Shown: positions 23,324 to 31,207 of the stretch, one piece after another
Layout of the letters: every line of letters starts with the position of its first letter
Numbering within the stretch: position 1 is the stretch's first letter
NCBI GenBank assembly: GCA_024653205.1
Contig: JANLFO010000023.1
Coordinates: forward strand, 1 to 34,787
DNA from: Clostridia bacterium
GTDB lineage: Bacteria; Bacillota; DSM-521; Neomoorellales; SLTJ01
DNA length: 34,787 nucleotides
Direction of reading: 5' to 3'
Position numbers and translations under genes: made by a program
The notes under the pieces: generated by a model
Database searches by the model: none
What the model was told of the DNA's origin: nothing
Seen by the model: only the letters and a program-made list of their open reading frames with translations

Positions 23324-23337
23324 AAACCGGCGATTCT

Positions 23338-23417
23338 CCCCGTCCCTCCGCTGGCATTACCCAGATCAGGTTCCAAGGGTTGGCGTCAAGCCTCTCAGCC
23401 TTTCGGCACCCCCGGGG
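23338..23417 (-). promoter_or_regulatory. TPP riboswitch (THI element)
   Basis: The minus strand carries the conserved core in order: GGGGGTGCC, GGCTGAGAGG, CCAACCCTTGGAACCTGATC, TGGGTAATGCCAGCGGAGGG. The closing helix P1 can form between CCCCG (23413-23417) and CGGGG (23338-23342). It controls thiE and thiC through the downstream terminator. No clear promoter is visible in the 210 bases upstream. Confidence 0.96.
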
Positions 23418-23523
23418 TCGTAACCCTGTTCGGCTGGCGTATCCCCACTTTGCCCTGGCCGTCCTCGTTCCCCCGGCACCGGTCGCCTCGCCGGACGGAA
23501 GGCCCTTGCGCCCTGCCTTGCGG

Positions 23524-24355: not shown

Positions 24356-24706
24356 CTAGAGCTCCACCAGACCCAGGCTCACCTCGATGGCGTGGTTTAC
24401 CTTAAGCATGGTCTCCTCGTCCAAGAAGGAGACTTTCTGCTTAAGCCGGCTCTTGTCGATGGTCCTTATCTGTTCCAGCAGGATGACCGAATCCCTCTCT
24501 AACCCGCTCCGGTCGGCGGCAATCTCCACGTGAGTGGGGAGCTTGGCTTTGTTTATCTGGGAGGTAATGGCAGCCACAATGGTGGTGGGACTGTACTGGT
24601 TACCGATGTCGTTCTGAATGACAAGCACGGGCCGGGTGCCACCCTGCTCGGAGCCCACTACCGGATTCAGTTGGGCGTAAAATATGTCCCCGCGACGCAC
24701 CAGCAT
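24356..24706 (-). CDS. ndoA: Endoribonuclease toxin NdoA/MazF (PemK family)
   Basis: mRNA interferase toxin of 116 residues. Family motifs: [20 protein letters not shown] at the start, [34 protein letters not shown] and the late [18 protein letters not shown]. It cuts free mRNA and is held in check by the antitoxin encoded just upstream. ATG at 24706 behind AAGGA. The pair downstream of alr is the standard Firmicute arrangement. Confidence 0.96.
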
Positions 24707-24725: not shown

Positions 24726-24998
24726 CTACAGAGAGGCGAAGTCGGCCTCGTAGCGGCCTTGCGCCTCTTCCTCCAACACGTAGTGCTCCTGGGCCAGGGC
24801 CAGGTTCAGGGAGGCCATTTCCTGGTAACCGCGTTTCATCTGCTCGCGCACGCTGCGCTTCTTCCTCTCCGCTATATATACTCTCATGGCCTCGCGAATG
24901 AATTCGCTGCGGTTCCGCCGGTCCACGGCTGCCAGGCCGTCCACTTCCTCCAGAAGGCTTTGCGGCAGGCTGATCATGATACGCCGAACCCCTGGCAC
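24726..24998 (-). CDS. ndoAI: Ribbon-helix-helix antitoxin NdoAI (MazE-type)
   Basis: 90 residues from the GTG at 24998. The N-terminal ribbon-helix-helix DNA-binding part is [20 protein letters not shown] followed by [19 protein letters not shown]; the C-terminal part ([20 protein letters not shown]) should wrap the NdoA toxin. A longer frame to 25145 runs through the promoter and is not used. It starts a two-gene unit with ndoA, 19 bases apart, with its own promoter and a likely autoregulatory operator. Confidence 0.93.
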
Positions 24999-25087: not shown

Positions 25088-25300
25088 TTATTTGCTTCGT
25101 GCAGTTATTGCGGTTAAGGAGTACGTCTGGCGCGGCAGTTGCCATTGGTGGGGTCCCCGTCCGAACAGATCGTAGACGGCGTTGAGGATGACCCTGGCCG
25201 ACCTACCCAGTTCGAGCTCACTGCGGTACAATGCACGAATTACGTCCTTCCACTTAGTCGCCTCTCGAGGTCCAACTAGTAGGCCTTGATCACCCTTAGT
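25088..25300 (-). pseudogene. Unrecognised coding-like remnant between the PIN gene and ndoAI
   Basis: A 70-codon open frame with protein-like sequence (EATKWKDVIRALYRSELELG, then RSARVILNAVYDLFGRGPHQ) but no start codon near its beginning and no ribosome binding site. It overlaps the end of the PIN gene by 25 bases. It may be the tail of a gene truncated when the PIN module arrived, or chance. I cannot name a family. Confidence 0.35.
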
Positions 25301-25716
25301 TTAGGGTGGGGAACATACTGGAAATCGTCGGGGTTGGTAGTGTAAAGCGGCAGGTCCCTGACTATCGCCGTAGCGGCTATGTAGCAGTCCTCAATGTGGT
25401 GCGTCCGGTATTCCGCCGACATCCGGCTGAGATAGCCGGCAACCGCGGCGATCCGTCGCGTAGTGGCTATGAAGTGGCAAATTCGCGGCAGGTACGTTGT
25501 GATCCGATGCTCTTCCTGAAGCGACTGAGGATATTGCAGCAACTCCTTAAACGTATGGACCGATATGTAGAGATCGATATTAGACCGTAAGGCGCCCTCG
25601 ATGAGTGCTACCGCTATAGCCGATTGAACGGCCTGATGACCCTTCAGGCGGCTCTTGCGCCTGGCGCGGAAGTAATCCACCAACACGCCGGTATCGAGAA
25701 GGATCCGATCATGCAT
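25276..25716 (-). CDS. PIN-domain ribonuclease, VapC-like toxin
   Basis: 146 residues from the ATG at 25716. PIN acidic residues are visible: Asp in ILLDTGVLVDYFRARRKS, Glu in SVHTFKELLQYP, Asp in HHIEDCYIAATAI and Asp in YTTNPDDFQYVP. Such proteins are usually toxins of type II pairs that cut specific tRNA or rRNA. The start overlaps the stop of a 51-residue gene by 8 bases (translational coupling), which is the expected antitoxin. The local GC is clearly lower than in alr on one side, suggesting recent arrival. An in-frame start at 25764 is possible but less likely. Confidence 0.87.
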   Translation of the reverse strand: MHDRILLDTGVLVDYFRARRKSRLKGHQAVQSAIAVALIEGALRSNIDLYISVHTFKELLQYPQSLQEEHRITTYLPRICHFIATTRRIAAVAGYLSRMSAEYRTHHIEDCYIAATAIVRDLPLYTTNPDDFQYVPHPKLRVIKAY

Positions 25717-25864
25717 ACTCCCGGCGGTCGAAGAAAGAAGTGTCCTTGTTTGCCCACATCCCACGAAGCTTCCGGGCCGCCTTTAATCTGTCCCTGGGAG
25801 TCAAGCGCGCAACTACTCGGGTTACTCGCACATAGCCTCTTCTCCTTGCCTTACGGGTTTTCAT
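25709..25864 (-). CDS. Small basic protein, putative antitoxin partner of the PIN toxin
   Basis: 51 residues, too short for most gene callers. It has the strongest ribosome binding site of the area, GAGGAGGAGG, 4 bases before the ATG at 25864. The N-terminus is very basic (MKTRKARRRGYVRVTRVVAR), as in a DNA-binding arm, followed by LTPRDRLKAARKLRGMWANK and an aromatic/acidic tail (DTSFFDRREYA) of the sort that docks in a PIN active site. Its stop codon overlaps the PIN start. Function is inferred from this arrangement; no family recognised. Confidence 0.7.
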   Translation of the reverse strand: MKTRKARRRGYVRVTRVVARLTPRDRLKAARKLRGMWANKDTSFFDRREYA

Positions 25865-25999
25865 TTTCCTCCTCCTCGATGGCCTTGATCAGCCTGGGCC
25901 ATATTAAGCCAGTTGCAATATCGCCTAGACGCCCATGCCGCGGTGCGGCGCCAGCAGAAGAATGAAAATGGCACTGCCCGGCCTATTGCTACATTGAAG

Positions 26000-27133
26000 C
26001 TAGGGCTTGTATAACCGGGGAACCCGGGGGCCTACCTGGCAGAGTACCTCGTAGCTGATGGTGCCCATCTTCTCCGCCAGTTCTTCCACGGGCAAACTAG
26101 TCTCACCCTGGCGGCCGAAAAGCACTGCCTCGTCTCCTTCGGCCGCCTCCGGCACGTCGGTCACGTCCACCAGGATGTGGTCCATGCACACCCGCCCTAC
26201 CACCGGTGCCCGGCGGCCCCGGACCAGGACTTCCGCCCGGTTGGAGAGCAGGCGGCCGTAGCCGTCGGCGTAGCCCACGGGCAGGGTGGCGATGCGGCTG
26301 GGGCGGGAGGTAACAAAGGTGCGGCCGTAGCTCAGGGGGGTGCCTCCGGGCACCTCCTTGAGGAAGACTATGCGCGCCTTGAAGGACATGGCGGGTACCA
26401 GGCGTACCGGAAGCCTGCGGCCGCCTTCTCCGGGGTAGAGGCCGTAAAGGGCCAGTCCGGGTCTGACCAGGTCGAGGTGGGTCTGGGGGAAAAGCAGGGT
26501 GGCAGCACTGTTGGCGGCGTGCCGAAAGGCAAAACGCAGGCCCCCCTTCTCCAGTTCCCTCAACACCTCGCGGAAACGCCCATGCTGCTCCAGCGTGAAG
26601 GAGGGGTCCGGCTCATCCGCGCAGGCAAAGTGGGTGAAGATGCCCTCGGGCTCCAACTCCGGGTGACCCAGGGCCTCGATGATCTCCTGCACCCCGCGGT
26701 TCTCCCAGGAGAAACCCAGGCGCCCCATACCGGTATCCACCTTGACGTGTACCTTGACCCGCCGGCCCGCCTCTCTGGCCGCCCGCACCAGATCGGGCAC
26801 CTGCCGGGGACTGTAGAGGGTAAGGCTTACCTCCCGGCGGATGGCCTCGGCCATCACCCGCGGCGGGGTGTGGCCCAAGACCAGTACCGGCAAATTCAAA
26901 CCCAGTTCTCTCAGCCGGAAAGCTTCTTCCGGCACGGCCACCGCCAGCCATTCGGCCCCGGCTGCGGCCACGGTACGGGCCACCTCGTCCAGACCGTGGC
27001 CGTAGGCGTTGGCCTTCACCACGGCCATTATTTTGACCGCCGGTCCGATCAGCCGGCGGATCTCGCCCAGATTATGGACTATGGTCTTCAGGTCCACTTC
27101 CGCCCATACCGGGCGGAAGGAAGCATCGGGCAT
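26000..27133 (-). CDS. alr: Alanine racemase
   Basis: PLP enzyme making D-alanine for peptidoglycan. 377 residues. The PLP lysine lies in IMAVVKANAYGHGLDEVART; other motifs are VHVKVDTGMGRLGF, GIFTHFACADEPD, LVRPGLALYGLYPG and the second catalytic region LPVGYADGYGRLLSNRAEVL, with VGRVCMDHILVDVTD. AAGGAG precedes the ATG at 27133, which abuts the nnr stop codon. In Bacillus the same gene is followed by ndoAI-ndoA; here the PIN pair lies between. Confidence 0.97.
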   Translation of the reverse strand: MPDASFRPVWAEVDLKTIVHNLGEIRRLIGPAVKIMAVVKANAYGHGLDEVARTVAAAGAEWLAVAVPEEAFRLRELGLNLPVLVLGHTPPRVMAEAIRREVSLTLYSPRQVPDLVRAAREAGRRVKVHVKVDTGMGRLGFSWENRGVQEIIEALGHPELEPEGIFTHFACADEPDPSFTLEQHGRFREVLRELEKGGLRFAFRHAANSAATLLFPQTHLDLVRPGLALYGLYPGEGGRRLPVRLVPAMSFKARIVFLKEVPGGTPLSYGRTFVTSRPSRIATLPVGYADGYGRLLSNRAEVLVRGRRAPVVGRVCMDHILVDVTDVPEAAEGDEAVLFGRQGETSLPVEELAEKMGTISYEVLCQVGPRVPRLYKP

Positions 27134-30925: not shown

Positions 30926-31033
30926 CGCCGGGTAATCCTCCTTCCTGTCCGCCCAAAGGGAGTCCTCGCCCTCGCCTTCGGGATTGCTTCTCCCCAGATC
31001 TCTCCAGAGCGTATCGGGATTCCCGGCCTCACC

Positions 31034-31160
31034 TGGTGCCCTTTGTTCCCCGATTGCTCGGGGGTTTTGTAGCACCGCTTACGGCCGTGAGCGGCCGAGG
31101 GGCATCCGCCGAATACTTCGATTAACCCCTTCCTCGTCAACCCGGGTCGGTTCCTGAGTT
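31034..31160 (-). ncRNA. glmS ribozyme (GlcN6P riboswitch)
   Basis: The leader of glmS, about 110 bases before the ATG, holds the conserved core in order on the minus strand: GGTTGACGAGG (to 31132), GGGGTTAATCGA, TTCGGCGGATGCCCC (31099-31114 region), a CGGCCG-CTCA-CGGCCG hairpin with GTAAG, the CCCCGA-GCAA-TCGGGG hairpin and AACAAAGGG, with GGTGC/GCACC closing the 3' domain. This is the self-cleaving ribozyme that lowers glmS expression when GlcN6P is high. The 5' strand, where cleavage normally falls before GCGCC, is not recognisable: the sequence before the core reads AACTCAGGAACCGACCCGGG. The 5' limit is thus approximate. Confidence 0.85.
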
Positions 31161-31207
31161 GTCCCCAGTTTCCGCCGACAGTCCTGGTTTCCCCGAGTAC
31201 CTAAAGC

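Follow-up and report, generated by a model that had tools for sequence, protein, structure and literature searches.

What is the short, basic reading frame that lies directly ahead of a PIN-domain gene between alr and ndoAI, and could it be the antitoxin of that gene? The window (the whole stretch of DNA that was analyzed, 34,787 nucleotides) carries these genes on its minus strand in the order alr, a 135-bp gap, the small ORF, the PIN ORF, a 277-bp gap, ndoAI, and ndoA (Table 1). An earlier note on this DNA had described a 51-residue basic protein with a strong ribosome binding site and an 8-base overlap with the PIN gene, and these features were all found as described. The Shine-Dalgarno site is strong, the net charge of the protein (Lys and Arg minus Asp and Glu) is +14, and the PIN ATG sits 8 nt within the 3′ end of the small ORF, which suggests that the translation of the two frames may be coupled. 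A longer form of the PIN protein, from a GTG start (162 aa), is mechanically possible, but in the homologues the protein starts where the ATG lies. A search of the window ahead of the small gene found neither a promoter-like site for it nor any palindrome at least 12 nt long. The note had also spoken of two toxin pairs lying back to back, but the two pairs are actually in tandem, on the same strand.

Table 1. Features of the alr–ndoA region and other elements, with positions in the window.
Feature	Position	Strand	Basis or remark
glmS ribozyme	31024-31171	-	Rfam, 82.8 bits; ordinary regulatory element
alr (alanine racemase), upstream neighbour	26000..27133	-	Named in the earlier note, and synteny; orthologues aligned
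Dispersed repeat of ~50-60 bp between alr and the small gene	25919..25987		Copies in this genome and in relatives
Purine-rich Shine-Dalgarno region of the small gene	25865..25877	-	GAGGAGGAGGAAA
Small gene, 51-aa basic protein, proposed antitoxin	25709..25864	-	ATG start
Overlap of the small and PIN reading frames, 8 nt	25709..25716	-	ATGCATGA
PIN gene, 146-aa protein, proposed VapC-like ribonuclease toxin	25276..25716	-	Pfam PIN, alignments, AlphaFold2 model
ndoAI promoter-like site TTGCCT-17-TATAAT	25070-25042	-	Retained
ndoAI, RHH antitoxin of the resident MazF/NdoA pair	24726..24998	-	GTG start; RHH_1, E 2.3e-8
ndoA, resident MazF/PemK endoribonuclease toxin	24356..24706	-	PemK_toxin, E 1.3e-38
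TPP riboswitch	23325-23423	-	Rfam, 66.5 bits; ordinary regulatory element

The 146-aa protein is matched by the Pfam PIN model PF01850 with an E value of 2.1e-6 and 28.8 bits, against a cut-off of 23.6. The NCBIfam VapC equivalog NF047959 gives 30.6 bits, under its cut-off of 80. An AlphaFold2 model built from 12 sequences has a pLDDT of 92.7, and its top Foldseek matches in the PDB are VapC toxins, with TM scores of 0.65–0.73; the nearest solved structures are the VapC proteins of Shigella, Rickettsia, Salmonella, and Klebsiella, and also FitB. The acidic residues D8, D14, E58, E109/D110, and D131, together with N128, are invariant across the 12 homologues, and they include the conserved active-site set (D8, E58, E109/D110, N128, D131). 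The same holds for a basic segment that follows the first helix (R17, R20, S22, R23, K25), which marks the subfamily. By its sequence and predicted fold, the protein is a member of the PIN/VapC toxin kind, and it would be expected to be toxic.

A search with the PIN protein over 398 genomes of the same phylum gave close homologues (49–62% identity) in four other genomes, and upstream of each intact one we found a small basic ORF with the same terminal motif. With a profile search of 113 genomes from a class to which Desulfofundulus belongs, the count of intact loci rose to 15, spread over 10 genomes, the window included. At all 15 the small ORF lies directly upstream of the PIN gene, at a spacing of −8 to +14 nt, and encodes a protein of 51–65 aa (52–65 aa in the 14 relatives, all of the same phylum) with a net charge of +7 to +14. 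No intact PIN homologue lacking the small gene was found among the searched loci. The earlier note had let its case hang in part on whether the small frame recurs beside PIN genes elsewhere, and it does so at every intact locus. The two proteins also diverge in a correlated way: their distance matrices give r = 0.87 overall and 0.80 when near-duplicates are left out, and none of 5000 shuffles reached this.

The alignment of 16 small-protein members, which are uniformly 51–65 aa long, shows a variable, basic N-terminal half and a conserved C-terminal tail. In the tail, G35, W37, K40, D41, S43, F44, and F45 are invariant, within a signature L-x-G-x-W-x-x-K-D-x-S-F-F that can be extended to L-x-G-x-W-x-x-K-D-x-S-F-F-x-x-R. 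An AlphaFold2 model of low confidence (pLDDT 68, pTM 0.33) predicts a helix at residues 23–38, followed by a non-helical or unstructured tail. The small protein gave no match in Pfam, NCBIfam, PADLOC, or PHROGs and no credible relative among the PDB sequence profiles, and a scan of all 16 members against Pfam and NCBIfam at E values up to 10 returned no relevant match. Single-member Pfam matches (DUF1307, Med9, and others) were rejected as chance, as was a PDB profile match of the family to casein kinase II (E 0.01), which covers only a lysine-rich helix. Among the known VapB families, profiles of AbrB/MazE, RHH, Phd/YefM, MerR, DUF433, and UPF0175 identified no DNA-binding domain in the protein, and searches of the open-licence literature found no description of this family. 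The earlier view that the protein is unlike a standard VapB therefore holds for the AbrB, RHH, and Phd profiles and for all the models scanned. Since the partner could be placed in none of the known VapB families that were tested, an uncatalogued antitoxin family is the best name for it, and it is probably, as judged from these comparisons, an antitoxin of a new kind.

We suggest that the small and PIN genes form a VapBC-like type II toxin–antitoxin pair, in which an uncatalogued minimal antitoxin would act through its C-terminal tail; we regard this as highly probable. In the proposed mechanism, the downstream gene would encode a PIN-domain ribonuclease toxin and the small gene its antitoxin, which would be produced first and be translationally coupled to the toxin. 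The antitoxin would be laid out as a variable, strongly basic N-terminus without a recognizable DNA-binding fold, a helix (residues ~23–38), and an extended tail (GMWANKDTSFFDRR). Helix and tail would wrap the PIN protein, with the Trp and the two Phe side chains in a hydrophobic groove of the toxin, and the terminal Arg or Lys would reach into its acidic active site. We thus read the tail as the putative toxin-binding element and the small protein as a candidate minimal antitoxin; toxicity, neutralization, the mode of binding, and any autoregulation are inferred. The more far-reaching proposal is that of a separate antitoxin family which has no DNA-binding domain at all and neutralizes a PIN ribonuclease by a tail of about 25 residues, and here we judge the chances to be evenly balanced. 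If it is true, the operon would have to be controlled by another route, for instance by a regulator from outside or by an action of the basic N-terminus on RNA.

Could the small protein instead belong to a known VapB type (AbrB, Phd, or RHH) from which it has diverged or been truncated, with its DNA-binding domain lost or disguised and only the toxin-binding tail left? This would be compatible with a working toxin–antitoxin module and opposes only the claim of a separate family; we consider it possible but somewhat doubtful. More distant PIN genes of the phylum, among them a second one in this genome (on C10), are paired with antitoxins of the AbrB type, and the tails of these have the sequence ETAGLWKNDDIDPDYV or DTAGIWPDVDPDYV. 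The TAGLW/TAGIW motif in these tails resembles the tail of the small protein, which has a G-L/I-W-x-x-x-D pattern in common with the AbrB-type tails in G129 and at the second PIN locus of this genome. A profile comparison of the small family with the AbrB type by hhalign aligns L-x-GMW-x-D-x-D, landing exactly on the shared motif, but it is weak (P 0.0027, probability 11%); the likeness rests on a few residues and, as homology, is not significant. Moreover, no family profile matches any of the 16 members, and their uniform length of 51–65 aa means that the truncated state would be ancient rather than local. The shared pattern does suggest that both types of antitoxin may use the same site on the PIN protein, and in this it also speaks, weakly, for the toxin–antitoxin reading proposed above.

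A second alternative is that the small protein is no direct antitoxin but regulates the PIN gene in transcription or translation, or serves as its leader peptide, in which case something else would be the neutralizer or the PIN protein would not be a toxin. A strongly basic N-terminus could bind nucleic acid, and the overlap of the frames is suggestive of translational coupling. However, it is the C-terminal tail that is conserved while the basic N-terminus varies, as expected of a toxin-binding tail, and intact PIN genes were never found without the small gene. The small protein is also under purifying selection: dN/dS of the small gene is below 1 in six of six close pairs (0.13–0.73, with 3 to 34 differences per pair; in one of them, dN is 0.135 and dS 0.845), and where the pairs are more diverged, the differences cluster at the third position of codons. 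Between the window and G020, a member of the same family, dN is 0.18 and dS 2.5, giving a ratio of 0.07 with dS saturated. We therefore think a regulator or leader peptide improbable. That the small ORF is a chance frame next to a solitary PIN gene, as its 51 residues and want of a database match might suggest, is refuted beyond practically any doubt, since at 15 loci both its position and its sequence are conserved, with dN < dS; on these comparisons, the two genes are a conserved pair.

Decayed copies of the proposed toxin–antitoxin pair were also found. Seven loci retain an intact small gene with a broken PIN gene (in G453, G412, G462, G455 on contig C119, G434 in the copy near 4210 kb, G502, and G414), and the reverse was seen at none. 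In G453 (L044), an insertion of about 275 bp interrupts the PIN gene soon after the first helix, leaving the small gene intact; several other loci hold remnants of both genes. The 7-to-0 pattern fits a toxin that could not be kept without its antitoxin, though weakly: the PIN gene offers a target 2.6-fold larger, and such an asymmetry has a chance of about 0.11 if hits scale with length. A scan of genome contigs with a single sequence yielded nothing beyond a decayed fragment of a PIN gene, in Desulfofundulus thermobenzoicus. Viral contigs scanned with both alignments, and phages searched by tblastn, gave no match, and the one distant PIN protein (34%) returned by plasmid tblastn has a Phd-type partner and was rejected as not of this family. 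The patchy and often decayed copies, spread over two or more classes of one phylum, illustrate how such modules move and die. Two further loci were noted in passing. At L098 (G472, 1516–2075), a remnant of the tail motif (GLWEDKDTSFFERG) stands directly before a PIN gene from another subfamily, and the two may be neighbours by chance within a toxin–antitoxin hot spot; partner swapping was considered here and rejected, since the remnant has no credible start. At L096 (G419, 1460–1795), remnants of two different small antitoxins lie in tandem and lack the PIN gene that belongs to them; after them come a further small gene and an apparent different PIN gene.

How did the pair come to lie between alr and ndoAI? 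The earlier note had proposed comparing this gap in relatives, and the comparison, which covers the 18 relatives in which both neighbours could be placed, bears out an insertion: the distance is 1026 bp in the window and 47–405 bp in the relatives, none of which has a PIN or small gene between the two. The pair is thus a lineage-specific insertion. In the nearest relative, G020, the alr–ndoAI gap is empty and 123 bp long, and the pair occurs as a decayed copy on a different contig; the promoter region of ndoAI can be aligned between G020 and the window. The description of the alr–ndoAI link as split is therefore right in that the module sits between the two genes, but the link has been lengthened and ndoAI keeps its own start signal. 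The resident toxin gene ndoA was present in all 22 searched genomes of the window's class.

The lower GC content ascribed to the module is real. At 55%, against 66% for the window, the module falls within about the lowest 1.2% of 589-bp windows, but the resident ndoAI–ndoA region also has a GC of 55–61%, so that the contrast drawn with alr is due in part to the richness of that one gene in GC. The small genes of the relatives have a GC of 27–43%. This base composition is consistent with acquisition of the module from a lower-GC donor. Two repeats were observed near the module. An imperfect 26-nt direct repeat (20/26; core AGG[GC]TGATCAAGGCC) at 25271–25296 and 25870–25895 flanks the two genes exactly, and it could mark the insertion or be due to chance. 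The dispersed repeat just upstream of the small gene (GTGCCATTTTCATTCTTCTGCTGGCGCCGCACC...GGCATGGGCGTCT) has copies on C9, C21, and C1 of G000, and its matches number at least 42 for G008, 12 for G009, and 6 for G021; it has no match in Rfam, and a transposon end and an interspersed element are both candidates.

PIN toxins of the VapC type are among the commonest bacterial toxins, and some adjoin small genes that family models do not see. A conserved partner of only 51–65 residues, marked by its signature tail and matching no fold that is known, would constitute a new antitoxin family that can be searched for, and the pair offers a simple test of the minimal sequence needed to neutralize a PIN nuclease.

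Among known systems, the closest comparators are the VapBC pairs of Shigella flexneri (3tnd), Rickettsia felis (VapBC2, 3zvk), and Klebsiella (7by2), and FitAB of Neisseria (2h1c). Like VapBC, the pair described here combines a PIN toxin bearing the acidic active-site set with a small upstream partner in an adjoining or overlapping frame; the partner has a putative toxin-wrapping C-terminal tail, and VapC proteins are the best structural matches of the PIN model. Unlike the known VapB and FitA partners, which have DNA-binding domains of the AbrB, RHH, or Phd type, the small protein has none that is recognizable. The antitoxin families associated with PIN proteins by Makarova et al. (2009, PMC2701414) are RHH, AbrB, PHD, DUF433/COG2442, UPF0175/COG2886, COG2880, MerR-like, and COG1753. 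In that work, the conservation of a small gene next to an established toxin gene was argued to be a strong indication of an antitoxin, and several new PIN partners were found in this way. The present case rests on the same kind of neighbourhood argument, a small gene conserved directly beside a PIN gene, so the finding, although interesting, is of an expected sort. It differs from those families in that no Pfam or NCBIfam antitoxin model matches the small protein.

PaaA2 of the PaaA2–ParE2 system is an antitoxin without a DNA-binding domain. It is listed in PMC5086665, and archaeal aRelB, with its basic N-terminus (PMC4803016), is an antitoxin whose DNA-binding domain is unclear or absent. The small protein resembles both, by description rather than by sequence, as a short antitoxin that would consist essentially of a toxin-binding segment, and it shares the basic N-terminus with aRelB; these two, however, neutralize toxins of the RelE/ParE type and not PIN nucleases. 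Finally, the NdoAI–NdoA (MazEF) pair, which is located next to alr (PMC6562991), is like the small/PIN pair in being a toxin–antitoxin pair of adjacent genes on the same strand. The toxin and antitoxin families of the two are unrelated, and NdoAI–NdoA is found throughout the class, whereas the small/PIN pair is an insertion specific to this lineage.
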